DNA of 64,000 bases from Mesostigma viride (Eukaryota; Streptophyta; Mesostigmatophyceae; Mesostigmatales; Mesostigmataceae), in NCBI GenBank assembly GCA_009746045.1, contig RPFO01000065.1, positions 1,389,924-1,453,923 on the forward strand, in the 5' to 3' direction. The notes beneath the pieces are model-generated. The model did not search any database and was not told the origin of the DNA. It saw nothing but the letters and a program-made list of their open reading frames with translations. A program made the translations under genes and the position numbers. This document shows, one piece after another, positions 9 to 63,056 of the stretch. The stretch's first letter is position 1; every line of letters begins with the position of its first letter.

Positions 9-530
9 AGTTATTCTAGGGCTTCAGGCCTAGACTATCAGTACACGTGGCGTTGTCCCCGTCTCCCAAGTGGGATACGGACATGGACGGTGGTGTAGTA
101 CACTGGACATATCTCTACTATAGGGTTTAGATCCGCACGTGCCACATTGGGCACGTGGGTGCTAGATATTAGCACTGAGATATGTAGGGCACACGCACGT
201 GGGTACTCACGTGGTAGGGTTATGAGCTGTGAGGCAGACCACAAGGTGGGCTGCAGTGCTAGTCCTGTACGGAGGTCCTAGGGGAGGTCCAGGACCATCC
301 ACGTAGTGCTGTTAGGCAGTCGTTGCCTGTGGGCATCGTATCAGTCCTAGCTGGAGTAGATCTAGCTGGACGGAGCCAGCACCTCATTGGTTAGCACTAG
401 TGCAGGATAGCCAGGTTACCCTAACCTACGTGCCCATGCAATCCAGCTTGGCAAGCTTGCATGGATTGATATATGCCAGCCATTGCATAATCCAACACAC
501 GTTCGCTTTCATCGCACAAGTGCATTAACT
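9..530 (+). repeat. 5' LTR of element A
   Basis: 522 bp, begins AGTTATTCTAGG and ends GCATTAACT, so the termini form a short inverted repeat AGTTA/TAACT rather than TG/CA. Differences from the 3' LTR include two-base indels near 120, 281 and 456 and substitutions near 237 and 411. No TGG-type primer-binding site follows directly; the 48-nt leader (531-578) is AT-rich. Confidence 0.93.
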
Positions 531-578
531 TGCATTATTAAAAACTCTCAGTTTTTTATACTCTACTATCTTCCTACA

Positions 579-3482: not shown

Positions 3483-4896
3483 GGTTTTTGGACACTTTGA
3501 GCGCGGGTTGGCGCCCCACGAGCCGGTGCCAGAAGACGCGGTCCTGGAGTTCATGCGTACACCGCAGCCAGACCGAGCAAGGCGAGGAGCGGCTTTGCTG
3601 CAAGCGCGCCAGCGAGTAATCGCTGGTGCAGACACCCCTTACCCACCACCCCCCACACCCACACACCATGTGCAGACCGACACGGACCTCGAGCTGGATC
3701 GCATTGCCGCACTGCTACACCAGGAGCTGGATACAGCGGAGGCCAACCCGGCCAAGCGGGCGCGGGCAGCAGAGGCAGTAGAGCAACTGCTCGGGGCCGC
3801 CAAGAAGGTTCGCCAAGGAAAGTGGCAGGAGGGGTGTGGACCATCGTCTTCACACCAGCGGTCGCATCCAGAGGAGGATGGCGACGAGGGGAAGGACGGG
3901 GGAGCACCAGGGGGAGGGGCACCCTCAAGCACCGGGGGTATGGCGGGCGGCAACAACGCTGGAGCGACAACCCAGCAGCATCAGCCGCCACAGCAGCAGC
4001 AGCAGCAGCAGCGGCAGCACCAGCAACAGCAACCGCAGCAGCAGCAGCAGCAGCAGCAGCAACCCCAACCACAAGCGACAGTCGCTGTACCACAGTGACC
4101 CAGGTTTGATGCATCACGTAGGGAGGATAGGATTACCTTCCCAGGTCTAGCTGAGGGGTTTGTGCAGGAGGATGCACTTGAGTTCCTTTTCAAAATAGAA
4201 CATTCCTGGTCCCATGACAAAATCCGTGATTGGTTTCCTGCTTTTAGGGTGTCTAACAAGGTACACCAATCTGCACCTAGCATAAAGCAAATGGTACAGA
4301 TGTATGAGAGGAAAGCCAGCACACCTGGGGCAGAGGAGGTGCAAGTCTTCACAGACTTCATAGCAGACCTAAAAGGGTTGTTGACTAAGGGTGAACACCT
4401 GCAGGCTATCAAGGGGTTCAACTGGTTGGCCTCGTACAAAGTCAATAAGTCTGATTACGTACGTGACAACAAGCAGTATGTCCTGTATATAGACAGGGAC
4501 GAGAAGCTGAAGAAATTAAACTCCAAGTACCTAGTCAATACCTGGCTCACCAAAGCTGAACTGGACAAGAACACCAATGCAGTCCTGCTGGCTGGCCTTA
4601 AAGACAAGTGGGATGACTTCAGGGGGGCAATGTTGTTTATTCAGCAGAGCTTAGAACCCTTCTCCACTGTCAAGGAAGCCAAGGTCAACAAGGTGCAAGG
4701 GGGGGGAAATCAGGAAGGCGCAGGTCCTAGCAGGAAGAAGCTAATCAAGGCGGTGGTGGCTCAGGTCAAGGCAGTGTTCAAGGGTGCCCAGCATGGTAAA
4801 AAGGCAGGGGGGTCATCCAAGCAGCAGGGTAAGTCAGACAAAGGGGGGAAGGGGAACCCAGGCATTAAGGCAGGGTCCTCCCATGCAGGGGCCTAG
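3481..4896 (+). pseudogene. gag-like ORF of element A with one in-frame UGA
   Basis: One frame is open from 3481 to the TAG at 4894-4896 except for a single TGA at 4096-4098. The first part is charged, then glutamine-rich (CAG/CAA tract at about 3979-4074). The second part (4099-4896) is a helical gag-like domain comparable in position and composition to the gag ORFs of B and C, ending in a basic K/G/Q-rich tail. There is no ATG near the start of the frame, which opens after a stop inside the palindrome at 3463-3482. The UGA may be a mutation or a readthrough site. Nucleocapsid-type zinc knuckle coding follows in another frame. Confidence 0.7.
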
Positions 4897-5188
4897 TCAG
4901 AAAGGTAAGCCTCATGACTCCACTTTGTATTGCACCAGATGCTCGTGCAAGGGGCACGAAAGGGATGATTGCTGGAAGGGCAAACCTGAACATGGATCTG
5001 ATGTTGATGTGTGCCCAGGTTGCTGGGAGCCACGCCACCCGTTACCTGCAGGGGGACGCCGCAACAAGCCCAGGAAGGGAGCCACAGCGGGGCGCCCCTC
5101 TAAGCAAGCCAGCACTCAGGACGACTGTAAGTCTCCTGTACCCTGGTTTTCAATGGCCGTGTACCTCAATCTGCTCTGTGTTGCCTGA
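4784..5188 (+). pseudogene. zinc-knuckle (nucleocapsid) part of element A gag
   Basis: This frame overlaps the end of the gag frame in the +1 register and encodes a CCHC knuckle, C-T-R-C-x4-H-x4-C (about 4930-4971), followed by a second cysteine pair CPGC. CCHC knuckles bind nucleic acid during packaging of retroelement RNA. In B and C the knuckle also lies at the end of gag, so the register change here marks an indel near 4880 or a frameshift site. Confidence 0.7.
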
Positions 5189-6143
5189 CAGTGAGGAAGT
5201 GGACTGGGACCTGGCTTATGACATGACATTAGCACAGGTGGCCCAAGATCCCACTATAGCCTCCTTAGACGCTGCAGCAGATAAGGTTATTTCCTATGCC
5301 AGGTTAGCCCAACAGCTACACAAGGCAATGGGGCATGAGGCAGTGGCAGAAAGGCTGGCCAACAAAATTGATGGCCGTGACCTGGAACAGATGTGCAGGC
5401 ATGTCAGGAAGCACTGTGAAGCGTGCCAACTGCATGCACCTAAACCCAAGAGATGGCATGTGGCCACCCCACCACTGGCTAGAGGAAAGCTAGTAGGGGA
5501 TGTGATACACGTGGTGAAGGACACGGTGTATTACTTGGTCCTAAAAGATGCCTGGTCTAGGTTTGTGGTGATAGAACCCTTGCCAGGCATGGCCAATGAA
5601 CAACTGCACAGAGCCCTGCTGATTGCACTAGCACGGTATCATCCTCAGGAAAAATTAATGCTGGATCAGCAGTTCACGTGGATACAAGATTATCCTGATC
5701 TGCCCAAGATAGACATTGCTGGGGCTCAAGATCATGAACGCCAGGGGATGATTGAACGTACCATGCGTGCTATCAGGGACCTAATAAAGAAAAATGAGTC
5801 CAGGACAGCAGAGTCTGGGAGCTATGCTGATAGGACAGCGTGGGCAGCTGAGGTGTGCAGAACTCTGAACACCAAACCCCTCATGTCTTCTCCTTTTGGT
5901 GAAATCACATCAATTGGCCTGCAATCAGGTAGCTACTCTCAGGAGGTACTAGACCACTACAACACGCAAAGGCAACACTTGGCCAAGTTGCTGGCAAAAA
6001 AGGATAAAAGTAATGCCAGGCCTGTGTTTGAAGTGGGGGATCAGGTACTCTACTATAGGGAGGGGAAGGGAACAAAGCCCACTCTGGTAGATGGCATGGT
6101 CCAGCTGAAATCATCAGGTTGTCAGAAACAGGTGACACGGTGA
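5170..6143 (+). pseudogene. integrase of element A
   Basis: The frame encodes an HHCC zinc-binding domain (L-H-K-A-M-G-H near 5319 and C-E-A-C near 5418), then a DDE core: D in G-D-V-I (near 5500), D in M-L-D-Q-Q-F (near 5662) and E in M-I-E-R-T-M (near 5752). The second D and the E are 30 residues apart, shorter than the D-x35-E usual in integrases. The C-terminal region continues after about 6110 in another frame, so this copy is broken there. The protein would insert the cDNA into the chromosome. Confidence 0.85.
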
Positions 6144-7099
6144 CTATTCAGCATCACAGAGAGCGAATGGTTGGCAAGCATAGACTGAAGCTTTATTACC
6201 CTCCTTTGGCAGACGTGTCAGGGGTAGAATTCTTGGACATGGATTCAGAGCCTCAGTCTGGTGGGTTGGTCTCACCCAGTGAATTGGCCAGGGACATAGC
6301 TGATGCAAGCAACACAACCATAGACGCTCCTGTGTTCCTCAGTGGTGCAGCCCCACCACAGCCCAACGGTCCACCTGGGCAGGAGGAACGTGCACTGGAT
6401 GAGCAGCAGGTCGCTCCTCCCTCATCTCAGGAACAGCCACACGAAGCAGCAGATCCTGTTGTCCCCAGGAATAAATTTGCTGAGGCTCTAAAAGCTCTAC
6501 ATAGAGCACACACTGCCAAGGCACAAATGGCAGCAGGTGCAGCACAAGTCAATGCTGTGGGTGAATCTAACCAGGATCCCAGTATTCTGGCAGTAGACAC
6601 ACAGGCACAGGTGAGCATCATCAGTGCACAAGCTGTATCTGGCCTAAGTCTGCAACGCTCGCCCTGGGCTAGAGTGTCAGATTTTTCAGGCAAAACAAAA
6701 ATGGCAGTCAAAGGCCAAGTGCTAATTCCCATTCTGGGTGTGCCCACTCCCTTCCAGGTAGTAGAGGGCTACAAGGGGAATGCACTGCTGGGGGAACCAT
6801 TTGTCTCATACCCTGGAGTAGTCATCTCAGCTGGGAGGTTGAGCGTGACTGGGGTGGGGCAGGTCACCCTGGACCATTTCAAAATTCCTTTAACACAGAT
6901 CAGTGATGGCCTGGAAGCAGCCATCAATGCTGTCAACATAAAATACCTCCCAGGTCAGGAACCCTGTGTTGATTCCCTCATTCATTCTCAGAAGTACACC
7001 CCTCTGCGTTTGGGCTTGGTAGATGGGACATTGCGTCCATGTCTCCCTTGTCCTATGATGATGTGGTCAAAGACTGTCAAACGCAGATTGGTTTTCTGA
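6119..7099 (+). pseudogene. integrase C-terminus and retropepsin-like domain of element A
   Basis: The frame begins with the end of integrase and a proline/glutamine-rich linker, then a retropepsin-like domain from about 6580: D-T-Q-A in place of D-T/S-G-A (about 6595), V-S-D-F-S-G, a hydrophobic V-x-G-Q-V-L-I-P-I-L-G strand, and a L-L-G-E-P-F turn (about 6787) where retropepsins have I-L-G-x-D/N-F-L. The domain lies after integrase and before RT, unlike copia elements where it precedes integrase. The same order occurs in B and C. The glycine of the catalytic triplet is replaced, so activity is uncertain. Confidence 0.75.
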
Positions 7100-8589
7100 A
7101 ATGGATGGAAGCCTTTAACAGGGCTAGAGAGGAATGGGTTTGTCCTGATCCACGTAGTAAGTCCCAGGTACCACCTGTAACACCGATTGAGGCACTGCCA
7201 CAAGGGGCCAGAAAGCTCAGACTGAAGTTTGTCTGCAAGCATAAACCCCAGGCAGATGGGACACCTCCCATTTTTCATGCCAGACCTTGTGTCACGGAGT
7301 TCAGGGGCTCCACTGAGCTAACAGAGGCTGAACTGTATACCCCTGGTATTCAGCAGACGTCTCTTAAGGTCCTGTTGGCCACTTTCCTTCACCATCTGAA
7401 TGCTGGTAAGGACTACGTGTGTAAAGCCACTGACATTAAACGAGCCTTCCTTAAAGGCAACCCTGACATAGCCCAAAAGGTGTGGAGGGGTCAAGTCTAT
7501 GTGGTAAACACTCCCAAAGTCTGGTCTGGGGACATCAAGGAACCTCACTAAGGCCTAACTTGGGGGTAGAAGGGCTTCAGTCAGCACCTAAAATTTTTAG
7601 GCTGTCTGCCCAAGAGGTCTTCCTGAAGCTGGGGGCCCAGTATGATGATATTGACCCTTGTTTCTTCACCATCCCTCATCCTGCTGGTATGATGATGTTT
7701 GTGTGGCATGGGGATGATCAGCTCATTACTGGTCCCAGGGCAGCTGTGGAGGATTTCATTGCTCAAGTGTCTGCTAGCTTTGAATTAGGCAAGCAGCTGG
7801 AGCTGGGGAAAGATCCTGTCAAGTTCTGTGGCATCATTCTGAACCTGTTTAAGGAGCAGAAGGAGTGGGTGTGTTCTCTCAAAGCATCCCCTGAATGTCA
7901 TGTCTTGCAAAGATGTTCTCCCTCTGACATCACTCCTGATCTCTGTCCCACTATTAGGGGTAAGCTAGGTTGGCTGTGTGCCACTTGTGCTCCTCATCTG
8001 GCAGTGGTCAGCAGAGTGGATGATGATGTCCTCATGGAGGTGGGTCTAGGGCTATTAAACAGGTGTTGCATGATGGCCCTCCCCTTATTCTTCATGCCTT
8101 GGATCTGTTCCAACCCATCCACATCACATGCATGATGGACAGTTCCATGGAGTCACGGGTAGTCACTAAGGTACAAGCCAGAGAGGCAGGTCTATTTATG
8201 TTGTCTAACCCCACTGGCAAGCAATCTTTGGTTTCCTGGTTCAGCAGACTCCACAAGCGCAAGGCAGTCAGCAGCAATGTAGCAGAATGTCGTGCTGTGG
8301 TTCATCTGTGTTGCATGCCAGGTACTTGAACCATCTGCTGGTGTGGTTGCAGCATCAGGCTGGTAGTTATGCTGGTGTCAAATCCCATCTGCTGACTGAC
8401 AGTCAATCCCTTCTCTCTTTCCTGGACAACCCCTTGGCTGTGCACACCGATTTGGACTGGATTGTCCTTAAGCAGGAGTGTACCTATCTGGAGTCCAAGA
8501 CTCACATCAGAGACCCTGACAATGCAGCAGATGCACTCACAAAAGTGCCCAAGCTGCAGGGCCTCAGTATAGAGTCCTATACACGCTGA
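7039..8589 (+). pseudogene. reverse transcriptase and RNase H of element A, in three frames
   Basis: Three successive frames cover a copia-type RT and RNase H. 7039-7551 holds the fingers and T-D-I-K-R-A-F-L-K-G (first catalytic Asp). 7560-8135 holds the palm with W-H-G-D-D-Q-L-I (about 7704-7727), then the connection. 8063-8589 holds RNase H: M-D-S-S-M-E-S-R, A-E-C-R-A, L-T-D-S-Q-S and N-A-A-D-A-L-T-K supply the D, E, D, D residues. The breaks near 7540 and 8080 inactivate this copy unless they are sequencing errors. Confidence 0.85.
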
Positions 8590-8992: not shown

Positions 8993-9516
8993 AGTTATTC
9001 TAGGGCTTCAGGCCTAGACTATCAGTACACGTGGCGTTGTCCCCGTCTCCCAAGTGGGATACGGACATGGACGGTGGTGTAGTACACTGGACATATCTCT
9101 ACTAGGGTTTAGATCCGCACGTGCCACATTGGGCACGTGGGTGCTAGATATTAGCACTGAGATATGTAGGGCACACGCACGTGGGTACTCACGTGGTAGG
9201 GTTATGAGCTGTGAGGCAGACCACAAGGTGGGCTGCGGTGCTAGTCCTGTACGGAGGTCCTATAGGGGAGGTCCAGGACCATCCACGTAGTGCTGTTAGG
9301 CAGTCGTTGCCTGTGGGCATCGTATCAGTCCTAGCTGGAGTAGATCTAGCTGGACGGAGCCAGCACCTCATTGGTTAGCACTAGTGCAGGATAGCTAGGT
9401 TACCCTAACCTACGTGCCCATGCAATCCAGCTTGGCAAGCTTGCATATGGATTGATATATGCCAGCCATTGCATAATCCAACACACGTTCGCTTTCATCG
9501 CACAAGTGCATTAACT
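8993..9516 (+). repeat. 3' LTR of element A
   Basis: 524 bp, begins AGTTATTCTAGG and ends GCATTAACT, followed by the duplication TCCAC at 9517-9521. Pairs with 9-530. Confidence 0.93.
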
Positions 9517-9861
9517 TCCACACCCACTGGGAACGACTCCCATGCAGTGGCGAGGGTCAGCGCGCACAAGCGGCGGCACTGCTTGTTGAGCTTGTGGGAT
9601 GAGGACCGCCCCTTAGCCAAGCAGCCCAACGCCGCGGTGGAGTCCACCAACCTCACCACCCGCTTGCCTCGGTTTGCCAAGCTGCGCGCACTCCTCTCCA
9701 CGCCCGGCCCTTCACTGCAGCCCGCACCTCCTTCTCGTTGATGTGCATCCCCGGATCCCGCCAACGACTCCTCACCCCAACCCGCCATTGCTGGCTAGTG
9801 ATTGCTTGTTGCGCCCGCGCGCTCAGTGGCCTAGGGCCGGGCAGCGTATGCCACCTCGCTT
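9517..9861 (-). pseudogene. RNase H-like end of retroelement E, cut by element A
   Basis: On the minus strand the sequence reads L-V-D-S-T-A-A-L-G-C-L-A-K-G-R-S-S-S followed by an A-x4-W-E-S-F-P-V strand, the pattern of an RNase H domain with its DS-x-A-A motif. Element A inserted in the last strand, so the rest of E would resume at 8-1 and beyond the left window edge. The frame is disturbed by a short (TTAA) tract belonging to the neighbouring LINE insertion. Confidence 0.6.
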
Positions 9862-29812: not shown

Positions 29813-29817
29813 CAGCC

Positions 29818-30290
29818 CTATTTGATGGATATTCCTAGATTGCCACCTGTGACGAAGCTAAGGGAGGTTTTAGCTAGTATTTAACCACACTAACACCCCT
29901 TTATACATCTAAGCCTCATGAAAACTGGCCAAACCACATACTACCATTCTCTGCACATATGGTACCTCCTATGTTCAAGGTTTGACGCCATTCTGACAAG
30001 AACTGCCCAAGTTACAACCATTCCAAGACAGCCACCCATGTAGACGCTACAAGGAAATTAGAGTAACCATTTAGCCACACTAGCACCTCCTTCTTCATCA
30101 AAGACATCTGCAAACTGACCAAAGCACACATAATCAACTCTTGCACGCTGACGGCAACGCATGCTCAATGTGGGGGTCATTGCGACAAGAACTGCTCAAG
30201 TTGATGGGTTTCCTATATGACCACATGACAAGGCGCTAAGGACCACTCAGTAAGTTAGTAACCCCACAGTGCCACTTAATATGCCATCCA
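29818..30290. repeat. degenerate tandem repeat of about 185-190 bp
   Basis: Blocks with CCACACTAACACC / CCACACTAGCACC (29885, 30075) and CATTCTGACAAGAACTGC / CATTGCGACAAGAACTGC (29990, 30180) recur with a spacing near 190 bp. The unit broken by element D (23361-23379 plus 29818 onwards) belongs to the same series. Confidence 0.6.
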
Positions 30291-32978: not shown

Positions 32979-33632
32979 AGTTAGCATATTGGGGCACCAA
33001 TGTGCTAGATGGATGCAGGTTGAGGAGACCTTTCCAACGCCGTGTCAACCGCCTAGAACAGACAAGGGACTAGAAAGTTATCAAGTCCCGAAGTACTGCC
33101 GACCGGTGGGCGAGGGCGGTGCACACTCAGGGCATAGTGGACAGGACACGTGGCAGGCCGTGCCTGCACAGGCTTAGCCTGGACTCTCACGTGACTTGGA
33201 CACAGTGTACTGAGGGCTCAACGGTACTGTGGCTAGTAGAAGCCAGTAACCAGCCAGCAGGTCTGCAAGGATGTAAGTCCTTGCAGGACTGTGGCAGGTC
33301 CTGTGCTGTCCTAGACACAGGATAGCCAGAGATTCCTGTATGCTGCCTGCAACGAGGATGCAAGGCAGTGATACGAGGCTCTGGCAATGTAGCGTTGCCC
33401 AGCGTTGCTCATGACCGAGGAACAAGGATGGAACGAGGTTGCATATAGCTCGAGGCTCAACGAGGCAACGAGCGTCTTCACACACGAACCTTGGTCGTCG
33501 CGACGAGTGGCGAGCCTATCGAGGGTCGTAGGCCTGGTGTGAGGATAAAGGTTGCTAGCCAGCAGCCTAGGGTCATTCCAGCCGGCAAGGACCAGGAGCT
33601 CACAAGCTCTGCTGACGAGTTGCTGCGCAAAT
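32979..33632 (+). repeat. 5' LTR of element C
   Basis: 654 bp, begins AGTTAGCATATTGG and ends GCTGCGCAAAT. Only 23 nt separate it from the ORF1 start; no TGG primer-binding site is seen there. Confidence 0.92.
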
Positions 33633-33655
33633 CGTACTATTGCTTCCACGCTTTC

Positions 33656-34792: not shown

Positions 34793-34846
34793 GCCTGAGG
34801 GGGTTCCAGCGGCCATGTCTGCGTGTGTTTTCTGTGGTATTCTATA

Positions 34847-35839
34847 ATGCTTCGTAACACGCGCGGGGGCGGCAGCGGGAGCGGGGCGGGAGCGGGGGAT
34901 GGCGGGGGTGAGGCAAGGGCAGAAACAGGAAGCCCCGCCAACGTCGTGCCAGAGGGACAGGCAATCCCAACGGCAGAGGGCGTCAATGGCAGGAGGGCGT
35001 CCAACCGGAAGAGGAAGGAGGTGGCACAAGGGGAGGAGCGTGCAGGGTGGCCAACCGACGGCGTGGTGCTGACGGGGGAGGGCCAGAATGATGCTGAACG
35101 GCAAGCACCTGGTAAGAGACCATGTGTGCCTCTGTCTGGTGTTCCTGAAGCTCATGTTCCTGCGCCATTAGCACCCGTAGGAGCTGCTGTCATTGGCAGT
35201 GACCCTCGTGCTTTGCCTGGGACTAGACCTCATATGAGTGCTGTGGCTGTGATGAATGGCCAGAAGCCTCTCAAGCCTCCTGTGGGACAGGAAGAGCTAG
35301 ACAAGTGGTTGGAGGATATGGAGCTAGTTTCATGCTCTGTAGATCCCACTGTCAACCTTGTGCAGGTATTCCACACATCCACGACTAATAGGGATTCAAG
35401 TGAGAGGGTGAGGGACAAGGCTAGGCAGGCTGTCAAGGACAAGCTGACTTGGTCTCAGTTCCTAGAGGGCCTACGTCAGGAGTTTTCTGATAAGGTACTC
35501 AACCTCACTAATCACTATAAGCTCAGCTATGATACCTTTGAGATCAAGGGCACAATAGCTGAGGAGCTGCAGCGGCTCACACGCATCAGGGAGAAGGGGG
35601 CCAAGCATGGCTTCAATCTGACTGATAGAGCAGTGGCAGATTACTTCCTGGATCGCATGGGGCTGAGTGTGGATGGGAGAAATGCAGCTAGGATGTTTGC
35701 TGATCAGACAGATGGGACGTGGCCAGCCTTGCAAAAGGTTATTTTCAATATCCGTCCATCTGACAATGCTGCTTGTAAGGCAATCCAGGTGACTGGTGCC
35801 CCTTCAGCCTCCGCTCATCAGGTCCATGGTGACGCCCCT
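34847..35839 (+). pseudogene. gag of element C, first part, interrupted by element B
   Basis: The ATG at 34847 opens a Gly/Ala-rich leader, then a helical gag-like domain (about codons 140-320) with W-S-Q-F-L-E-G-L and a D-Y-F-L-D-R-M-G-L motif that corresponds to D-D-F-L-G-S-L-G-L in the gag of B. The frame is cut at the CCCCT target of element B and continues without shift at 43297. The apparent stop at 35842-35844 lies within the B LTR. Confidence 0.8.
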
Positions 35840-36467
35840 AGTTAATATTGCCTGGCAAGCAATATTATTCTACTAAGCTACTTGGCTTGTAGAGATTCTA
35901 CTTCCGGTTACTACAATCCAGAAACGGGTTCATTCTGATGAGTATTGCTCGAGATGTGAGCAAGATACTGTTCTACTACATTCTACTTGGATTCAGTTAT
36001 TCTACGGTGGTTCTTCAAGTGACGCGTGGCATACGACGTCTTGTCACAGTGTACGATAGGACATTTAGTCTCCGACACTGCGGTCTATTCAATGCTATTG
36101 ATTAGACGTAACAAATAGTGACAGGACTTGTGCGACAGGACACTGATGTGACTATTTATGGATAACGAGTCGAGATCTGCTGGTCCAGAGTGAAGGACAG
36201 CAATATTGTGAGATGATCTGTCCTATCAGTCATCTGGATGTGACTGCGTCACAATTAGTATATAACGAGCAGGACGCTGCCACTTGGTAGCACCACTTTC
36301 CCTGCACCTGTGTCCTCGCACCTTCGGCGACGGTTCTCACGTGCCTTGTGCGTTCTGTGCTGGTAGCCATAACCAGCAACGTAAACCTATTGATTAATAT
36401 AACTACTTCCTCTGTAGATATTAATCAGTGCAGGCTGAACCACAGTTCAGCCACAGTTTCGTTAACT
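35840..36467 (+). repeat. 5' LTR of element B
   Basis: 628 bp, ends with the inverse of its first six bases (AGTTAA/TTAACT). The 81-nt leader after it holds a perfect hairpin (CGTAATC-TACT-GATTACG, 36485-36502) and no TGG primer-binding site. Confidence 0.93.
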
Positions 36468-36548
36468 CGAATTACAAGCGAGTTCGTAATCTACTGATTA
36501 CGGCATTGATTTCTGGTGTCGGCAATTTTTACGGTGTTTTTCCATTAT

Positions 36549-37112
36549 ATGGGAAACACGCGTGAATATCGTGAGCCATCTCCCGAGCGTGCGTCGGCTC
36601 CATCGTCTTCAGGTTTTAATTTCAACGTTCAACGTACGGCGTCAACTGCTGCGCTGCATTCGCGTGCTGTTCAACCTTCGCTGTCTCAAGCGCTCGTCAG
36701 CCGGCCGCCAGTTTCTAACGATCTGCATCAGTTCGTCGACGACCTTACTCAAGATTTGGAAATCCTGTCGGAAAATTCCCATATTTTCCGAAGGCTTGCA
36801 GCTTCGGGATCAGACGAGCAAGCTCAAGTAATTTCGGCGCTTCGCACCTACGGCTTGGGTGTTCTGGCGTTGGCGACAGCGTGGTCTGGAATTTCGGCGA
36901 CTCTTCCGGCTGTCGCAGTTCCGGTTAGCAACAACGGGTGGGCGTCGTCAGTCGACGGTATCATAAACGTCGCTGCTTCGATTCAGCGGCAATCAAACGC
37001 TGAGGAGCCAGGTGAAAACAGCGAGGGGCTTCCTGATTTATATCCGAGTATTGTGCAGCAGATTTTGGATAACGTATTGCAGTTTCCGCGCGACGATATG
37101 CGGCTGGATTAA
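36549..37112 (+). CDS. ORF1 of element B, unknown protein upstream of gag
   Basis: 187 codons, ATG at 36549. The N-terminus is polar with many Ser, Arg and Pro; from about codon 70 the protein is helical (Q-F-V-D-D-L-T-Q-D-L-E-I-L) with an Ala/Val-rich hydrophobic patch (about codons 105-135). No recognised family. It corresponds in position to ORF1 of A and C. The TAA stop overlaps the start of a 12-bp hairpin (37112-37139) and gag starts 150 nt downstream, so gag would need reinitiation, leaky scanning, splicing or a separate transcript. Confidence 0.65.
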   Translation: MGNTREYREPSPERASAPSSSGFNFNVQRTASTAALHSRAVQPSLSQALVSRPPVSNDLHQFVDDLTQDLEILSENSHIFRRLAASGSDEQAQVISALRTYGLGVLALATAWSGISATLPAVAVPVSNNGWASSVDGIINVAASIQRQSNAEEPGENSEGLPDLYPSIVQQILDNVLQFPRDDMRLD

Positions 37113-37262
37113 ATTTTCTGTTATAATTAACAGAGAATTAATTCAGGAAAATTTTTTTCTTGGTTCCAGAGCTTAAGGGATTAATTTATTAATTCCCCAG
37201 CAGTATTCTTTCTTCAGCATCGGCATCGGCATCGACAGTTGTCATCGGCATTCGCAGCGACC

Positions 37263-38326
37263 ATGCAGGGTTTGGAAGACGGCGAGATACGCGGCGAACA
37301 AATGCTGCGGGGTCAGAATTTTAATCGTCCAGCAGCAGCAGAGCAGCCCCGCAGAGCCAAGGCCCAGGAGGGCTTTGCTATTCTTAACCAGCTTCCCAGT
37401 CTCAAGGAGCACTGGACTGTTAAGGATAAGGATATTACCATTAGGCACCTTAAGGGATATAAGGGCTTGTATAATGGTAACAATCCTCTGCAGGTGCTGT
37501 GTATGTCACAGTACCTTCTTAAGTGTCCCAAGAGGGTGCAGAAGTATGTAAATGACAAGTTTGAGGATGGAGATTCCTGGGATGTTTTTATAGCTGAGTT
37601 TGAGGTGTTCCTAGATGATAAGAGGGCTAGTGATGGCTCCTTTTGGAAGAAGGAGTACATTGATTTCAAGGCTGAGGGTCTGATTCTGCAGGCATTTGAG
37701 GATTTTCAGGAGCTCAGGCACAATTGTGCTGGCAAGGGGTATGTAGTGTCAGATGAGATTGCCATGGATGATTTCCTAGGTAGCCTGGGATTGGATGAGG
37801 TCACCTTGGATAACCTGCAGGTGCACATGCGTACATGCACCACCTGGGCTGCTATGGTGGCCAAGATCAAGGATTATTTCAGGGGCAAGTATGTGGGAGG
37901 CAAGAAGGAGGCAGACAAGGCCAGGGAGAAGCAGAAGGAGAAGGATAAGGTGGATGTGGCAGCTGCAGCAGGGGGCAGTGTTCCCAAGGTCAAGGGCAAC
38001 CAATGGGGGGGGCAGCCCTCCAACGGTTATGGTCCACCAAGGTCAGGGCCTTCCAAGCGGGGGGCTTCCAGGCCAAGGGCTTCAGTGGCTTCAAGCGTCG
38101 TGGAGGTCCTTCCCAGGAGCAGCCAGCGGCTCAGCGTCCCAGATTTGATTTCAACAGGGTGGGGTCCCAGCGGGGACCACCTGGGGTGGGGACACCTCGT
38201 ATCACATGTTATTTCTGTCACCAGCAGGGCCACATCCGTAAGGACTGCCCTAGCTGGCGTAAGCAAAGGGGCCAAGGGGGTATAACAACCCAACCTGACA
38301 GGCTCAGCCTTCCCTGGGCTTGCTAG
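37263..38326 (+). CDS. gag of element B with C-terminal zinc knuckle (frame change)
   Basis: The ATG at 37263 opens a gag-like domain: V-L-C-M-S-Q-Y-L, W-D-V-F-I-A-E-F-E and D-D-F-L-G-S-L-G-L-D-E in a helical protein, followed by a Lys/Glu-rich region. The frame runs to 38285, but the CCHC knuckle (C-Y-F-C-x4-H-x4-C, about 38209-38250) is in the -1 frame, open from about 38003 to 38326. An eight-G run at 38004-38011 lies where the frames overlap and could be either a slippage site or a one-base error. The pol frame (opening after 38298) overlaps the knuckle frame again in the -1 register. Confidence 0.75.
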
Positions 38327-41300
38327 GGTCCGCCAGGGAGGGGGCTAAGAGTGACCCCCCCATTACTCTGGATGAAGTTGATTTGCTCCCTGCACAGGTT
38401 GAGAGTCTCCCGCTTAAGGTTGAGAGTCCCCCTGCACAGGTTGAGGGTGCATCCATGGAGGAAGAACACAATGGGGTAGTGACTGGGTCTTCCCACGTCA
38501 CCATGGTGAAAGCAGTTACCACAAGGCAACAACGTTCCCACATGGCTCTTGGAGGTAGTTTGCGTACTCCTTCAATGTTGGAGCGTGGAAGTCCTGCCTT
38601 AGGGCAGGAAGCTCCTTTAGAGGAGGAGGATGAGGCTGATGGCCTGAATGATGCAATGGGGAGCTTGGTTGTAAGAGAGAGTGCTGTTCCAAGCACCTCA
38701 CCTGTATTTAATAAAATGTCTCTTGTGTCAAACATTGCATTGAGATTGCATCATATGTTTGGTCATGCTGCCCAGGCACTCCAGTTTGCAAGGAGGCTGG
38801 GAGGGACATCTTTGTTTAATGCAGTAAAGCAGGTTGCTGAGGCTTGTTCCTGTAGGCTGGTTGCTCCCAAGCCTAAGAAGTCTCATGTCAGACAACCTGT
38901 GTTGCAGCCTGGATATGTACAATGTGATATCCAAGAAATCAGGAAACTGATTTTGTTGGTGGGTGTTGACAGATACACCAAGTACAAGGTGCTGGAGCTG
39001 TTGCAAGACAAATCTAAGCCATGTTTGGTGGCTGGGCTCCAGGCTATCAGATCCAGAATGAAACCAGTGATCCAGCTGCAGTGTGATTTAGAATTTGAGT
39101 GCTGCATGGGGCATGAAGACCTCCCTGAGTTATTTGTTGTACACAGGGAGTCCCATGGCAGTCAAGGCGTGGTGGAGAGGACAATCAGAGAGCTCAAGAC
39201 TATTCTGCTGACGGAGAAGAAGATTCCAAGATTGGTTCCAGCTATTATCAAGACGGCCTGGTTAAGGTCAGTTGAGGACAGATTGAATGTCAGGGCACCC
39301 ATGTATGTTGGAGAGGTCCCTGTGACTCCATTATCATTGCATCTTCGGGAGCTCCCTACTGAGGTTGAGCAAGCCTGGAAAGATAGCCTTATGTTCAAGT
39401 TTGCCAAGTTGAGGCAGAAAGACAAGGGCTGGAGTGTTCTGAAACCTGTTGTTGGCCAGAGGGTAATTGTGTGGAAAGAGCCCAAGCTTGCAGGCAAGCG
39501 TGGTAGCTGGCACCCTGGAGTAGTGACCAGGGTGGAACTAGCTGGGCACAAGTGCTGGGTGAAGATGGAGGATCCTCCCCAGAATGTGCACCGTCTGTCG
39601 TGGTCATATGTACGTCTAAGGGGTGCTGAAGCAGAGGCAGTAACTCCTGATGTGACAACCTTGCCAGTTGGTCATGACGTCATCCCTGATCATCACGTTC
39701 CGGCTGGAAGTAATCCCCGGGTAAGTCCTGGCCAGACCCCTGGACCGGTTAACTTTCCAGATTTAGAGCAGGCAGATGTGGTCCCCTCTAGCCTCACTAA
39801 GCATAGAGGTGTGGGCCTGAAAGATGTGGTGCTGGCTATGCAAAAAGCCAAGCAAAAGCCTCGGGTGTCCAAGCTCAGCCAGTTGGGGGAGTCCGAGTGC
39901 ACTGCACTAGAAGTAGATACCAATGCAGAGGTCTCAATCATGGGGTCTCAGCATACAGGGCAGCGGCAGATTGGCGAGTCTAGCTGTTCCTGGGTGTCTG
40001 ACTTTAGTGGCAGGGTTCATATGAAAGTGGTAGGAGAAATCATCTTACCATTTATGGGTGTAGATGTTTCCTTCCTAGTGCTAGAAGATTACGATGGCCC
40101 TATCATTTTGGGTCAGAATTTTCTTTGCACCCCTGGAGTTGTGGTTGTATCTCATAGCCTTATTCGTAAGGGTTGGGGTAGCATTCCACTGACTAACTTC
40201 AGGGCCCTGAATCTTAATTTTTTCTCTGTGAAAGCGATCAGGAATGTGCAGTGGCCTGAGGATCAGATTCCTGTGGCTTCCAGTCTTGTGATGCCAGCTG
40301 CTCTTCATCCTAGCAGTATTGGTATTACTAAGAGATCACTGGCTGCTCATTCTCCTCTTAGCTATGATCAGCTTGTCCAGGAAATGAGTTCTCCTCTGAT
40401 GTTTGAGGCCTGGAGGCTAGCATTTGCCAAGGCCCTAGAGGAGTGGTTGCAGTTTGACTGCTGTCAGCCTGTGAATGAAGTTCCTCCATACAGTACACGG
40501 TTGAAGCTCAGATTCGTCATCAAGCGGAAGGAGGTGGAGGGGGTGTCTGTTCCCCATGTGCGTCCAGTTCTTAATGAATACCGTGGTACTGGGGATCTTC
40601 TGGGCGAGGAGTTGTATACACCTGGGATGCTACATGATACATGGCGTATTTTATTGTGCCTGTATGTCGGTATGCTGAACCAGGGTGCTGATGTGTCTTC
40701 AGTTCTGCTAGATTTCAAGAGAGCATTTCTGAAGGGTGATCCCAGTGTGGCTCAGCAGGTGTGGCATTGTGAAACTCCATTTCATGTGCCAGTTCCTGTA
40801 GCCTGGCAGGCAGAGCTCCAGTCTAGCTACCTGCTGATTCTGAAGGGTCTAGAAGGTCTCAGGTCCAGTCCCATCATTTGGAGGCTCACCTTGGAAGACT
40901 TCTTGACTAAACACTGTGGGTTGAAGGTGTCATCTGTGGACCCATGTTTATTGCTGGGTAGGTGGCATGATTTACCTGTGTATGCTAGCCTGCATGGTGA
41001 TGACTTGCACTTGATTGCTCCCACTAAGTGGTTGAGTCAGTTTGTGCCCATCATTAATGATGCATTTCCTTTGGGAAAAGAATTGTGGCAGAAGCCTGGA
41101 GAGGCTGTCACGTTCTGTGGAATGCAGGCTACATTGGTTCAGGAGGGGAGTCAGTGGCTGATTAAGCTGCAGGCGGGCAATGACTACAAGAGTACCATTC
41201 TTCAATCTGTTCCAGAGGTCATGACGTCATCCATTGCACCTGAGCTGAAAGGCAAGTTGGCCTGGTATGGCAGCATTTGTGGGCCTGACATGATGGTCCA

Positions 41301-41892
41301 TAGCAGATCCCCTGATGATGTGCTAATTCTGGAGGAGCCTTCCCAGATTATTGCACATGTTAACAAGTCTCCTGGTATTACTTTAGCTGGGATAGATTTG
41401 TCTTTGCCATTTTCCTTGGATATCTATGTTGATAGCTCCATGGATAGCAGGCAAGTTTCTAAGGTCAGAGGCAGGTCAGCTGGCTTGTTTGTGCTTCAGC
41501 AACATAGGCCTAGTCTTGTGGCCTGGTACAGTCGTCTTCAAAGAAGGGTTGCTGTGAGTTCAGATGTCTCTGAGTGCAGAGCCATTTGTGAAGGGATTCA
41601 GTCTAGTTTGTACATCAAGGAGCTGTTGCTAGCTATGGCTTCAGTGACTCCTCATACTCTTCAGCTGGAAACCTTGATCCTTTCAGATAACATGGGTATG
41701 GTCCAGTTTGTGCACAAGCAGTTGGCCAGAAGCAGAGATCTGGATTATCTCCTGTTGAAGGAGTTGGCAGGTCTGGTGGATATTCAACATCTTCCAGGTT
41801 CTGAGAATCCTGCTGATGCCTTGACCAAGTTGCCTCACAAGTCTGCTGAGCAATATAAGCTTCTTTACAAGCTGATGAGCTCCTCTGTGTGA
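38320..41892 (+). CDS. pol of element B: integrase, retropepsin-like, RT, RNase H
   Basis: 1190 codons without a break, no ATG at the start, so probably made by frameshifting from gag. Integrase: HHCC zinc domain (H144/H145, H148, C-S-C near 174) and catalytic D203, D256, E286, with only 29 residues between the last two. Retropepsin-like domain: D533-T-N-A, V-S-D-F-S-G, I-I-L-G-Q-N-F-L at 595-602. RT of copia type: D798 in D-F-K-R-A-F-L-K-G-D, E-G-L-R-S-S-P-I-I-W, and the active-site box H892-G-D-D895 where copia elements have Y-V-D-D. RNase H: D1038, E1085, D1123, D1166 with N-P-A-D-A-L-T-K. The protease between integrase and RT is the notable feature; A and C share it. Confidence 0.93.
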   Translation: MLGSAREGAKSDPPITLDEVDLLPAQVESLPLKVESPPAQVEGASMEEEHNGVVTGSSHVTMVKAVTTRQQRSHMALGGSLRTPSMLERGSPALGQEAPLEEEDEADGLNDAMGSLVVRESAVPSTSPVFNKMSLVSNIALRLHHMFGHAAQALQFARRLGGTSLFNAVKQVAEACSCRLVAPKPKKSHVRQPVLQPGYVQCDIQEIRKLILLVGVDRYTKYKVLELLQDKSKPCLVAGLQAIRSRMKPVIQLQCDLEFECCMGHEDLPELFVVHRESHGSQGVVERTIRELKTILLTEKKIPRLVPAIIKTAWLRSVEDRLNVRAPMYVGEVPVTPLSLHLRELPTEVEQAWKDSLMFKFAKLRQKDKGWSVLKPVVGQRVIVWKEPKLAGKRGSWHPGVVTRVELAGHKCWVKMEDPPQNVHRLSWSYVRLRGAEAEAVTPDVTTLPVGHDVIPDHHVPAGSNPRVSPGQTPGPVNFPDLEQADVVPSSLTKHRGVGLKDVVLAMQKAKQKPRVSKLSQLGESECTALEVDTNAEVSIMGSQHTGQRQIGESSCSWVSDFSGRVHMKVVGEIILPFMGVDVSFLVLEDYDGPIILGQNFLCTPGVVVVSHSLIRKGWGSIPLTNFRALNLNFFSVKAIRNVQWPEDQIPVASSLVMPAALHPSSIGITKRSLAAHSPLSYDQLVQEMSSPLMFEAWRLAFAKALEEWLQFDCCQPVNEVPPYSTRLKLRFVIKRKEVEGVSVPHVRPVLNEYRGTGDLLGEELYTPGMLHDTWRILLCLYVGMLNQGADVSSVLLDFKRAFLKGDPSVAQQVWHCETPFHVPVPVAWQAELQSSYLLILKGLEGLRSSPIIWRLTLEDFLTKHCGLKVSSVDPCLLLGRWHDLPVYASLHGDDLHLIAPTKWLSQFVPIINDAFPLGKELWQKPGEAVTFCGMQATLVQEGSQWLIKLQAGNDYKSTILQSVPEVMTSSIAPELKGKLAWYGSICGPDMMVHSRSPDDVLILEEPSQIIAHVNKSPGITLAGIDLSLPFSLDIYVDSSMDSRQVSKVRGRSAGLFVLQQHRPSLVAWYSRLQRRVAVSSDVSECRAICEGIQSSLYIKELLLAMASVTPHTLQLETLILSDNMGMVQFVHKQLARSRDLDYLLLKELAGLVDIQHLPGSENPADALTKLPHKSAEQYKLLYKLMSSSV

Positions 41893-42668
41893 GTTGAGCA
41901 ATTCCAGTTGGAGCTTTGAGCTTGATGACTGATTGGGTGAGAAGAGCTAACATAGAGCTGGGCTCTGTTATGCTGAGAGCTGTGTTGCTCTGAGGGCAGT
42001 AATGCTCTGTGTACATATGTGTATAATACTGTATTCTATGTAATGCTCAGTCATGGAGCATGATGTTGGTTGGGGGTTTGTCCTCAGTTTGAGGTTTGTC
42101 TCAACCAAAGGGATTTTATAGGGCAGGGTTCGATTCCCTGGGGCTGCTTAGGCGGATTTTCCCGGATTGGCTGACCCATCAACCTTGCTGGTGAGGTGGC
42201 GACAGGTCCCCCTAGTTTTGTCCCAGACAGAGGAAGGTAGTTTGTCATGTGCTTAATATATTTTGTGATGTGCTATTTCTCAGTCCATGGTGGGCGCCAG
42301 TTCTGATAACTATCAATGTCTACCTGATAAGGTCTTGTGGGTAACTTGTGGGGTTCCAATCAGGAGCCATTATGGTGGTGATTCCATTTTGGTCATTATT
42401 CTGGTTAGCCACAAGCTGCTACTCCAAACACTTGGCTTTCTACTTCCAGTGGATAGGGAATTCATTGTAATTCGTCATGGCTGAGATGTGTTGTGATCTG
42501 GTGCTTGATTAATCCCGAGCAGAGACTACAGAGAGCTGGGAGGGATGTCAAGTGCTATGCATGTTGTTTCTATATATGTGTTGCCAAGCCTAACAGCTCT
42601 AAAAGAAAGAAAGGGCTGGAGTTAATATGGCTGTTATGTCCAAGCTCTAAAAGAGAAGAAAGGGCTGG
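41893..42668 (+). other. 3' untranslated region of element B
   Basis: Contains a 5-bp stem and 7-nt loop CAGGG-TTCGATT-CCCTG (42124-42140) like a tRNA T-arm, the motif GGGCGCCAGTTCTGATAAC (42292-42310), and two polypurine tracts ending in GGGCTGG (42601-42618 and 42648-42668). The second tract abuts the LTR and is the likely primer site. Confidence 0.7.
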
Positions 42669-43296
42669 AGTTAATATTGCCTGGCAAGCAATATTATTCT
42701 ACTAAGCTACTTGGCTTGTAGAGATTCTACTTCCGGTTACTACAATCCAGAAACGGGTTCATTCTGATGAGTATTGCTCGAGATGTGAGCAAGATACTGT
42801 TCTACTACATTCTACTTGGATTCAGTGATTCTACGGTGGTTCTTCAAGTGACGCGTGGCATACGACGTCTTGTCACAGTGTACGATAGGACATTTAGTCT
42901 CCGACACTGCGGTCTATTCAATGCTATTGATTAGACGTAACAAATAGTGACAGGACTTGTGCGACAGGACACTGATGTGACTATTTATGGATAACGAGTC
43001 GAGATCTGCTGGTCCAGAGTGAAGGACAGCAATATTGTGAGATGATCTGTCCTATCAGTCATCTGGATGTGACTGCGTCACAATTAGTATATAACGAGCA
43101 GGACGCTGCCACTTGGTAACACCACTTTCCCTGCACCTGTGTCCTCGCACCTTCGGCGACGGTTCTCACGTGCCTTGTGCGTTCTGTGCTGGTAGCCATA
43201 ACCAGCAACGTAAACCTATTGATTAATATAACTACTTCCTCTGTAGATATTAATCAGTGCAGGCTGAACCACAGTTCAGCCACAGTTTCGTTAACT
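42669..43296 (+). repeat. 3' LTR of element B
   Basis: 628 bp, followed by the target duplication CCCCT at 43297-43301, where gag of element C resumes. Confidence 0.93.
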
Positions 43297-43658
43297 CCCC
43301 TGGGCAGGGTGCTCAGGGAGAAACCAGACCTAGTAGGCGTCAGAGGGCTAACAGGCGCAGGCAGAATGGTAACCAGGGTGGCAAGGGCCAGCAGCAGGGA
43401 TCCAAAGGCAAGGGTCAGCAGCAGGCTGGTGGTCACCAGGGTGGTCAGCAGAACAAGGGTGGCCAAGGGCAAGGCAAGAGCCAGGGCCAGGGCACCCAGG
43501 CTAGTCAGAGCAGCCAGAACCAGGGTGGCCTGAAGAAGGCTGCTGCTGGGAAGGATGACAAGTGCTTTGGATGTGGCAGGACGGGTCATTGGCGACGTGA
43601 CTGCCCAGACCAGGCCAAGTCTGCTGGAGCAGGCTCTGGCCAGGTGGGTAAGCCATGA
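43297..43658 (+). pseudogene. gag of element C, second part, with zinc knuckle
   Basis: Continues the frame left at 35839. A basic Q/G/K-rich tail is followed by the knuckle C-F-G-C-x4-H-x4-C (about 43563-43604). The frame ends with TGA at 43656-43658; the same frame then stays open into the beginning of pol. Confidence 0.8.
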
Positions 43659-46600
43659 CTTGAGATGTTGTCCCCTGTAAATAGTCAATCACCCCTAGTG
43701 GGACGAACAGTTGTACATAGTAATGGGGGTGTCCCTCTTGTGCAGCAGCAAGGGGTTGGGAATGATGAGGTGCTTCCACTCAATGATTGCAATAACGCTG
43801 CTGCAGCAGTGGAATTCCCTGTGCCTGTGGCAGGTGCAGGGTCTCCAGTTGTTGGGGTTGACTCTGGGAGTCAAGCCGCCAGACTGGAAGGACCTGCAGC
43901 TTCTGTGGGAACCGGGGCTGGCTCTGGGAGCCGAGCTACCTTGGAGGAGGTCCCTGGAGCAAGAGAACAGCAGGTGGGTCGTGCTATCCCAAGCACACAG
44001 TCTTTGTCACGTTCCTCTCTGTGCAGCCAGGCTGACAGGGGGTTGAGCTATGCTCAGGCTGGAAACACTCTACACCATATCTTTGGTCACTCTAAGCAGG
44101 CAGAGATGTTTGCTTGGAAGATTGGCAAGGAGCCTTTGCTAGAGGCCTGCAGTGCAGCTGCTCAGAATTGTGTCTGTCAGGAGAATGCTGTTCGCCTCCC
44201 ACAGTCCCATGCCAGAGAGCCTGCTAGAGAGCGGGGGATATCCAGGTGGACATCCAACACATCAGGGGCATGTATCTGTTGGTGGGGGTGGATAGGTTCA
44301 GCAGATATAGGTTGCTGACCATTCTTCCTGGAATGCAGGAGCATCAGCTGTTGATGGGTCTCCAGTCTTTGTTGCCAGGCTTTGGGGTGTACACCAAGGT
44401 GCAAGCTGACTTGCAGTTTGACTGCTTGATCAAGCTGGCTGACCAGCTTCCTTGTAAGTTGGTAGTGGTCCCTAGGGAATGCCATGGGCAGCAGGGAGCT
44501 GTAGAGAGATCTATACGTGAAGTAAAAACAGTGGTGCTAGCAGCTAGGAGTGTGCCTGTTGTGGCATCAGCTCTAGAGAAAGCAGCTTGGTGTAAGGGGA
44601 TTGAGGAGCAGCTTAACCACAGGGTAACCTATTACTATGATGGTGTGGCAGTCTCTCCCCTGGCATTGCAGTTTGGTATGCTATCACAGGACGTGGTGGC
44701 AGCCTGCCTGAAGAAGGCAGACAGGGTGTTTTCCAGATTGAGGCGTAAGGACAAGGGTTGGAAAATGCTGAGGCCCCAGGTGGGACTGAGGGTCAGGATG
44801 TGGAAGGAACCGTCATTACCAGGCAAGCGTGGCAAGTGGCAAGATGGGCAGGTAACCCATGTTGAGGAAGCTAACCATTCTTGTCTGGTGGCTTTGGAGA
44901 GTAATCCCAAGCACGTGTACAGGCTATCCTGGGCTCACGTCAAGGAGAGAAGGCCAACTGCAATCTGGCCTGAAGACGGCCCTGATCCTCCCTTGGAGGG
45001 AGATGAGCAGGATGAGAGCCAGGCAGCAGATGCTAACCCGCCATGCTTGGATTATGGTCTGTCCTGGATGGATGAGGGTGAGCAGGAGTCTGCTGAGACG
45101 TCTGTCACAAGGCCAGAGGTGGCCAGGGCTGCACCACAGTCCAGGGGGCTGCTTATGGCGGACATCATTCGAGCTCTGCAGAACAGCAAGCGTGATCCCA
45201 AGGTATCTAAGCTCACGGGATGGGGGTCATGTGGGGCACCAGCACTAGAAGTGGATACCAACTCACAGGTGTCCATTCTAAGGGTAGAGGATGCTGCAGG
45301 CTTGCAGTGGTCATCCCCTAGCTGCCTAGCTGTGTCTGATTTCTCTGGGAATGTGTCCATGAAGATCTTGGGAGAAGTGAGTGTGCCTATCCTGGGGGTG
45401 CCCACCACGTTCAGTGTGGTTGAAGGGTATCAGGGGCCTGCCATTCTAGGTCAGAACTTCTTGTGCTTACCAGGGGTGAGGATATCCTCTGAGGAGCTAG
45501 CATTAGAAGGGCAGGGCCGCCTTCCCTTGCAGAGATATCGCTACTCCCAGGGTCTTAGTGTGGCTGTAAGGGCTGTGAGGGGTCTAGAGGCAGAGGGTCC
45601 TGATACAAAGGAGCCCATTGCTGGGGACCTGCTGATCCTCCCTACTACGTTTGACCCACGTGAGTTGGGTGTGCAGAGGTACCAGATCCCAGGAACGAGT
45701 CCTGTACCTTGGCGCAAGCTAGTGGAGATGATGCAAAGCCCCAAGATGGCTAAGGCATGGACTCTTGGCTTTGTTGCTTCTGGGCATGAGTGGATAGTTG
45801 CCAACTGTGCAGAGCCTGTGGATGTCCTCCCTGAGGATCACCAGCTGCTCAGATTGATGTTTGTCCTCAAGCTCAAGGAGGTAGATGGCGTGCAGGTGCC
45901 ACATGTTAGACCAGTTGTGACTGAGTACCATGGCACTGGACAGTTAGCAGATGAGGAGCTTTACACACCAGGGATGCTGCATGATACATGGAGGATTTTG
46001 TTGTGCATTTATTTGTCTTTTCTGCAGAAGGGGATACCCTATAGCTCTGTGTTGGTAGATTTCAAGAGGGCTTTTCTTAAGGGTGATCAGCAGGAAGCAC
46101 AGGATACTTGGCGCACAATACCCCCTTTCTTTGTTAAGGTGCCTGCAGTGTGGAGGGCAGAGCTGAAGACGAGGTATTTGAGGATTCTCAAAGGCGTGAA
46201 GGCCTTAGATCGAGTCCCATCATCTGGAGGAAGAGCTTGGAGAAGTACCTCAGGTCTGTCTGTGGTCTCTCAGTCTCTCCAGTTGATCCTTGTCTGTTTC
46301 AGGGTAGCTATGAGGGGCTGCCAGCGTTTGCCTCCCTGCATGGTGATGATCTGCATCTCCTGGGCCATCCCACTTGGCAAGAGTTGACTCTGGCCAGGAT
46401 CCAGAAACGGTTTGAACTGGGTAAGATCCAGTACATGGTTGAGAATGAGCCCATGGTGTTTTGTGGAATGCAGGCGACCTTGGTCCATCAGCAGGGTACA
46501 TGGTCCATCCAGCTGGAGGGTGGTAAGGATTATCCTCAGCAGATCATAGATGCCTTGCAGGAGCCCATCACCCAGGCCAGATGTGCAACAATACGAGGTA

Positions 46601-47250
46601 TGTTGGCATGGCTGGCCAGCATTTGTGCTCCTGACCTGTTGGTACTGAGTCGGTTGACCGATTCCCAACTGGTTGAGGTGGGTGCTGAGAGAGTGGTAGA
46701 GGCTGTTCGCATGTCTCCCCCTCTCATGCTGGGTCCTTTGGATTTGTACAGGCCTTTTGACATGATGCTCTATGTGGACAGTTCTATGGATAGTAGGAAG
46801 GTCACAGAGGTCAGGGGCCGTGCAGCAGCATTAATATCCCTGGTGCAGGAACAGTCCTCTCTGGTCTGCTGGTACAGTCGGTTGCAGAACAGGGTAACTC
46901 CCAGCAGTGACATTGCTGAGTGCAGGGCAATCTGTGAAGGGCTTCATACTGCTCTTTACTTGAGGGAGCTATTTTACCAGCTATGTCAAGTGGCTTCCTG
47001 TCGGTTGCAGATGCACACACTGGTAAGAACTGACAGCATGGGCATGGTGCAGTTTGTGCACAGGCAGCTGGCCAGGAGCAGGGACCTTGATTATTTGTTG
47101 CTCAAGGAAATGTCTTGCTTAGCTAACATTGAACATGTGGCTGGCGTGGACAACCCTGCAGATGCTCTCACCAAGCTGGAGGAGAAGGCTGAGCTGCAAT
47201 ACCCTTTGCTTCGTGGGCTCATGGCCTCCAAGGGGGGAGGGCCAGAGTAG
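43659..47250 (+). pseudogene. pol of element C: integrase, retropepsin-like, RT, RNase H, two frame breaks
   Basis: Frame 1 (to about 44230) has the HHCC part (H-H-I-F-G-H, C-V-C). Frame 2 (about 44230-46205) holds the integrase core (Q-V-D-I-Q-H-I; D-L-Q-F-D; A-V-E-R-S-I, last two acidic residues 32 apart), a retropepsin-like domain (V-D-T-N-S-Q near 45250, A-I-L-G-Q-N-F-L near 45442) and the RT start (D-F-K-R-A-F-L-K-G-D). Frame 3 (about 46205-47250) has E-G-L-R-S-S-P-I-I-W, the H-G-D-D box (46339-46350) and RNase H (V-D-S-S-M-D-S-R, A-E-C-R-A, R-T-D-S-M-G, N-P-A-D-A-L-T-K). Breaks near 44230 and 46205 look like single-base indels when compared with B. Confidence 0.88.
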
Positions 47251-48185: not shown

Positions 48186-48839
48186 AGTTAGCATATTGGG
48201 GCACCAATGTGCTAGATGGATGCAGGTTGAGGAGACCTTTCCAACGCCGTGTCAACCGCCTAGAACAGACAAGGGACTAGAAAGTTATCAAGTCCCGAAG
48301 TACTGCCGACCGGTGGGCGAGGGCGGTGCACACTCAGGGCATAGTGGACAGGACACGTGGCAGGCCGTGCCTGCACAGGCTTAGCCTGGACTCTCACGTG
48401 ACTGGGACACAGTGTACTGAGGGCTCAACGGTACTGTGGCTAGTAGAAGCCAGTAACCAGCCAGCAGGTCTGCAAGGATGTAAGTCCTTGCAGGACTGTG
48501 GCAGGTCCTGTGCTGTCCTAGACACAGGATAGCCAGAGATTCCTGTATGCTGCCTGCAACGAGGATGCAAGGCAGCGATACGAGGCTCTGGCAATGTAGC
48601 GTTGCCCAGCGTTGCTCATGACCGAGGAACAAGGATGGAACGAGGTTGCATATAGCTCGAGGCTCAACGAGGCAACGAGCGTCTTCACACACGAACCTTG
48701 GTCGTCGCGACGAGTGGCGAGCCTATCGAGGGTCGTAGGCCTGGTGTGAGGATAAAGGTTGCTAGCCAGCAGCCTAGGGTCATTCCAGCCGGCAAGGACC
48801 AGGAGCTCACAAGCTCTGCTGACGAGTTGCTGCGCAAAT
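48186..48839 (+). repeat. 3' LTR of element C
   Basis: 654 bp, ends GCTGCGCAAAT and is followed by GAAGA (48840-48844). Confidence 0.92.

Positions 48840-63022: not shown

Positions 63023-63056
<34 letters not shown>

Follow-up and report, generated by a model that had tools for sequence, protein, structure and literature searches.

An LTR retrotransposon lineage of Mesostigma viride with a retropepsin-like segment between integrase and reverse transcriptase

Domain order is a main criterion in classing LTR retroelements. In Ty1/copia elements the protease precedes the integrase, in Ty3/gypsy elements the integrase comes last, and in Gmr1-like elements the protease stands before the integrase. 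Gmr1-like elements are described as gypsy elements with the integrase upstream of the reverse transcriptase (RT), which provides a precedent within gypsy for this position (PMC3587641). Departures from the TG..CA ends of LTRs are likewise described, as in TARE1, where the LTR starts with TA and ends with CA (PMC3701649). For Mesostigma viride, the main text of the genome paper does not contain the word copia (PMC7027972).

Here we describe a lineage represented by three LTR elements, A (9-9517), B (35840-43296) and C (32979-48839), in a 64,000-nt stretch of the M. viride genome, hereafter the window. The lineage resembles Ty1/copia in that its RT comes nearest to the copia type, with RVT_2 matches below the curated cut-off, its integrase lies upstream of RT and its target duplication has 5 bp. 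It differs from Ty1/copia in that the protease-like segment is not located before the integrase, in a very long stem branch of its RT, and in an RT motif that reads H-G-D-D, the usual copia motif being Y-V-D-D. With Ty3/gypsy elements and retroviruses it shares, by eye, a protease-like segment directly before RT, the I-L-G-x-x-F motif and a W-x-G-P-like C-terminal module of the integrase, but its integrase is first and not last, lying upstream rather than downstream of RNase H, and no RVT_1 match at E ≤ 1 was obtained in lineage Pol. Gmr1-like elements differ from the lineage in having an RT of the gypsy type. The LTRs resemble those of TARE1 in departing from TG..CA and differ in sequence, those of A and B starting with AGTTA and ending with TAACT; the LTRs of C start with AGTTA and have another end.

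Layout, copies and domain order of the elements

Two LTRs, a target duplication, and gag and pol, the features by which an LTR retrotransposon is recognized, were all found in this lineage (Table 1). Element C is the outer element and B is nested inside it. No TGG primer-binding site was seen just 3' of the LTRs of A, B or C. A reading frame is located upstream of gag in each element (ORF1 in B, 33449-34792 in C and 411-1778 in A), none of which showed a Pfam domain above cut-off. A fourth LTR pair (23380-29823) encloses no frame of at least 200 aa and is perhaps a non-autonomous element. The window also contains tandem arrays at 49170-49941, 60241-60823, 61743-62103 and 62839-63096, with units of about 8 and 161, 28 and 14 bp, plus TGG runs.

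Table 1. Positions in the window of the LTRs, genes and domains of elements A, B and C
Element	Feature	Position	Strand	Remarks
A	5' LTR	9..531	+	Ends within 1 base; target duplication TCCAC
A	3' LTR	8993..9517	+	98.5% identity to A 5' LTR; ends within 1 base
A	gag-pol	4099..8589	+	Several frames in window copy; open in relative L051
A	Retropepsin-like segment (VDTQAQVS ... ALLGEPF)	6587..6802	+	
B	Target duplication, 5-bp CCCCT	35835-35839 and 43297-43301		
B	5' LTR	35840..36467	+	AGTTAA...TTAACT, without TG..CA
B	3' LTR	42669..43296	+	99.7% identity to B 5' LTR
B	ORF1	36552..37109	+	186 aa; no Pfam family above cut-off
B	gag frame (capsid part)	37263..38285	+	Not continuous with zinc knuckle in window copy
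B	Nucleocapsid CCHC zinc knuckle	38207..38248	+	Frame other than capsid part in window copy
B	pol open frame	38299..41892	+	1197 aa
B	Integrase, HHCC-like and DDE core	38749..39198	+	H..H 38749-38766; C-S-C 38845-38853; D, D, E motifs start at 38923, 39079, 39166
B	Integrase C-terminal module, presumably SH3/GPY-F-like	39451..39600	+	Extent approximate
B	Retropepsin-like segment (VDTNAEVS ... IILGQNF), between integrase and RT	39868..40185	+	D-T-N-A within 39907-39936; I-L-G-Q-N-F-L within 40102-40125; ends approximate
B	Reverse transcriptase	40480..41400	+	H-G-D-D within 40987-41013; ends approximate
B	RNase H, copia-like by eye (ends ADALTK)	41422..41829	+	Motifs
C	5' LTR	32979..33632	+	
C	3' LTR	48186..48839	+	99.7% identity to C 5' LTR; target duplication GAAGA
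C	pol	43659..47250	+	Three overlapping frames; broken in window copy
C	Retropepsin-like segment (VDTNSQVS ... AILGQNFL)	45245..45463	+	

The pol frame of B runs from an HHCC/DDE integrase through the stretch bounded by D-T-N-A and I-L-G-Q-N-F-L to RT and RNase H, as the original prediction had it, motif for motif. Elements A and C, for which the same order had been claimed, do show it, with the pol genes of both split over several frames in the window. The order was also found in two open A-type stretches elsewhere in the genome, L050 and L051, and in P0009, a protein from another data set with 58% identity; in L051, Gag, integrase, protease-like segment, RT and RNase H form one 1730-aa frame. 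The order integrase, protease-like segment, RT in B, A and C is real. In the integrase, the C-S-C of B is unlike the usual C-x2-C motif, and A has CEAC in its place. The C-terminal module of the integrase, which we take to be of the SH3/GPY-F type, has W-x-G-P in A (6086-6112); Foldseek alignments to intasomes cover about 310 columns, and a weak Agenet match was obtained (E 0.012).

The Ty1/copia order (protease, integrase, RT, RNase H) is that of the ordinary copia elements of the same genome and not that of the lineage. Ordinary copia loci L042, L043 and L045 run Pol_BBD protease, gag_pre-integrs, rve, SH3_retrovirus and RVT_2; Pol_BBD, gag_pre-integrs and SH3_retrovirus gave no match at E ≤ 1 in either of the two open lineage polyproteins and matched in all three ordinary copia. 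A protease before the integrase or in gag would have spoken against the original prediction, and neither Pfam nor motif searches found a candidate there; the motif D-[ST]-[GA]-[ASCG] is absent from the L051 polyprotein and from the pol of B and L010. In line with the supposition that the order was undescribed, no description of it was found in the open-licence papers searched.

Copies were searched for in the 440 Mb genome. Of 10,069 first-look candidates for B, 39 were scored, and 29 of these, the window copy included, span pol residues 1-1190 without a stop, ten of the 29 having 100% (rounded) identity, all such counts being lower bounds; the matches lie on many contigs. For the A piece, 117 of 5,433 candidates were scored. 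The high identity together with the open frames suggests recent amplification.

The relation of Gag to Pol varies among copies. In B-type copy L010, where Pfam zf-CCHC scored over cut-off, capsid, nucleocapsid and pol are in frame with one another, and Gag is separated from Pol by one TGA codon with a C after it (4702-4704, minus strand), and in L011 the nucleocapsid part is also in the pol frame, with a single TGA and then C before Pol. In L001-L008, a set that includes the window copy as L003, nucleocapsid and pol are in different frames and the capsid frame varies from copy to copy; the gag motifs are absent in B match L009. Judging from the gag frames of the window type, this B-type subfamily probably either frameshifts or is gag-defective; other copies are intact. 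A-type copy L051 has Gag and Pol joined in a single frame.

The segment between integrase and reverse transcriptase

D-T and the 72-residue span to L-G-x-x-F, with the lead-in, align without gaps in all eight sequences compared, two of which (the window copy of A and L051) belong to one family, and both ends, D-T-x-A/S and L-G-x-x-F, are conserved at constant spacing in the eight. The D-[ST]-G catalytic motif was not found, as the glycine is replaced by N or Q in 8/8 sequences. When seven segments, including one without the D-T end (P0013), were scanned with Pfam, gag-asp_proteas matched two (best E 0.0058), Asp_protease_2 two (0.077) and Peptidase_A2_2 one (0.0031); no clan AA profile exceeded its curated cut-off in these seven, the best E being 0.0031. 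Weak protease-family matches fell at the same place in A (0.0093), P0009 (0.086) and L050 (0.051 and 0.17). The B segment by itself matched no Pfam protease family, with DUF6898 and DUF3558 scoring instead, and DUF6898 (E 0.0033, two of the seven segments) and DUF3558 (0.025) score as well as the protease families. An NCBIfam scan of the segment gave no protease match, and PDB sequence searches with it returned nothing relevant.

With hhalign, the segment aligned to gypsy-type protease at 4.9% probability, and true copia protease aligned to gypsy-type protease at only 3.0%. When the gypsy-type protease profile was compared with the 1172-column pol alignment, the sole place found was the D-T-N-A stretch, in register, at 0.6% probability. 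Structure prediction had been proposed for B residues 520-640; the segment of A was modeled with AlphaFold instead (six sequences), with a pLDDT of 47. Foldseek with this low-confidence model gave no significant match (best E 0.77), the top matches being a mixture of MspJI, single-strand-binding proteins and HIV protease; HIV proteases, which are over-represented in PDB, appeared with E values no better than 1.8. All five lineage polyproteins tested contain a single instance of a composite retropepsin-like pattern, located between integrase and RT, and the one ordinary copia tested has none. When the residues of each protein were shuffled 2000 times, the pattern arose in 9-16 shuffles (10 for B), or 0.5-0.8%, a test that is not independent because the pattern was chosen after viewing the sequences and the five proteins are related. 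On the basis of these sequence comparisons, a retropepsin identity is moderately supported; we term the segment retropepsin-like, not a retropepsin, and consider it likely, not proven, to be a protease.

Simple pairwise counts (Nei-Gojobori) gave dN/dS values for the segment of 0.205 (B versus L010), 0.116 (L051 versus L050) and 0.185 (B versus L049). For L051 versus L050, the values were 0.102 in the integrase, 0.060 in RT-RNase H and 0.292 in the integrase tail plus linker; for B versus L049, the linker gave 0.416 and RT synonymous sites were saturated. Purifying selection on the segment, at dN/dS 0.12-0.21, argues against a dead remnant. Among ordinary copia loci of the same genome, the catalytic motif by eye is D-S-A-A in L042, L043, L044 and L048 (L043 and L048 being one family) and D-T-G-A in L045, L046 and L047; the L049 copia piece stops short of the motif. 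The D-S-A-A of the former four stands where D-S-G-A is expected in a copia protease. With D-S-A in four ordinary copia loci, absence of the glycine alone is no mark of a dead element here. The earlier proposal that the missing glycine points to an altered or non-catalytic domain was not supported, given these four loci and the purifying selection on the segment.

The pol of B and that of L010, which stand for two otherwise near-identical B subfamilies, are 93-100% identical in eight other segments measured and 71% identical in residues 511-640, where dS is 1.02 and dN 0.21, compared with dS of 0.01 to 0.11 in the other segments. The divergent block covers approximately 39,740-40,330 and is strongest at 39,860-40,275. 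Recombination or gene conversion between B subfamilies would be the simplest reading of this block.

Relationships and distribution

An RT tree was built from sixteen RTs, with gypsy RTs among them and no Ty1 or Drosophila copia RT included. The nine lineage RTs group together (100/100), and the stem leading to them measures 3.96 changes per column; this grouping supports the view that the distinct arrangement is common to a lineage. Four Mesostigma copia RTs were placed beside the lineage with weak support (78/74), the program warning of long branches meeting, and a fifth copia RT, P0018, was placed with gypsy, weakly. A position of the lineage inside copia and one beside copia are both compatible with this tree. 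RVT_2 matched L051 at E 2e-7 (31.3 bits versus a cut-off of 31.6), L050 at 9.6e-7, below cut-off, and B at 0.063.

Three protein searches over 5.8 billion sequences, in which shared 5-residue words were needed and about 8000 candidates were scored each, returned 1, 10 and 2 proteins. Mesvir1 (Mesostigma viride) proteins P0015 and P0017 are 98% and 97% identical to B-type pol, P0019 is 95% identical to L051 over 130 residues, and P0010 is 84% identical to C over 251 residues. P0018, also among the returned proteins, is ordinary copia. P0011, P0012, P0014 and P0016 match the Mesostigma genome closely; P0014 (98.4% identical to a piece of L049) and P0012 (90% over 309 residues) are probably from Mesostigma on account of their close identity to this genome. 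P0011, labeled Prorocentrum lima in EukProt, matches element C at 314 of its 315 residues and is probably contamination, and P0013, which carries that label too, shows 78% identity to C. Among the roughly 8000 candidates per search sharing 5-residue words, from 5.8 billion sequences, no relative was proven outside Mesostigma viride. The best aspartyl-protease match of the genome, L052 (G000 contig C2011), is of bacterial type by eye, and its contig may belong to a bacterial associate.

Interpretation and alternatives

We consider it probable that A, B and C represent one LTR-retrotransposon lineage with the order Gag, integrase, retropepsin-like protease, RT and RNase H, in which the middle segment is the only protease. 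The segment, with a putative retropepsin fold, would dimerise after Gag-Pol packs into particles, and the dimer would then release the integrase that precedes it and the RT/RNase H that follows. In L010, the single in-frame TGA suggests that Pol and protease would be made by stop readthrough. By analogy with Gmr1-like gypsy elements, the order may have arisen through relocation of the integrase to a position ahead of a block of protease and RT.

The glycine position, occupied by N or Q in all eight sequences, and the lack of a profile match over cut-off would also suit a retropepsin fold that no longer cuts and is retained in a structural or binding role, with processing of the polyprotein left to a protease of the host or to one of the element that escaped recognition. 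We regard this alternative as credible though unlikely, because D and T are kept in 8/8 sequences, ordinary copia loci of the same genome have glycine-free D-S-A, and the dN/dS of the segment is near that of the integrase in the single pair measured (0.116 versus 0.102), though RT-RNase H is lower (0.060). A non-catalytic segment is possible, not favored. It is improbable that the retropepsin likeness is coincidental and that the segment is some other small beta domain, such as a linker or one that binds nucleic acid; three clan AA families match it in some members, and the D-T-x-A/S and L-G-x-x-F ends keep constant spacing in 8/8 sequences. Nevertheless, the low-confidence model with its mixed Foldseek matches, none significant, the occurrence of the motif pattern in 0.5-0.8% of shuffles and a DUF6898 score as good as those of the protease families would all fit a coincidence. 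Finally, the frame-broken window copies of A and C might suggest that the order arose artificially, through damaged or rearranged copies or through the assembly, which is extremely improbable in view of the 29 stop-free B matches on many contigs, the open L050 and L051, and P0009 from another data set.

Returning to the preferred reading, of one lineage with its protease in the middle segment, a more far-reaching version can be put forward only tentatively, and we are doubtful that all of it will hold. The elements would then be a deep separate lineage combining a copia-type RT/RNase H with a gypsy-like protease and an integrase whose tail is gypsy-like, arranged as Gag, integrase, protease, RT, RNase H, with an active glycine-free retropepsin and exchange of the segment between subfamilies by recombination.

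An amplified lineage whose protease-like part separates integrase from RT would show that a position next to Gag is not required of the protease, and it would make a glycine-free retropepsin testable. As most domains of the lineage are only weakly matched by Pfam, such elements may count as unknown repeats in algal genomes.
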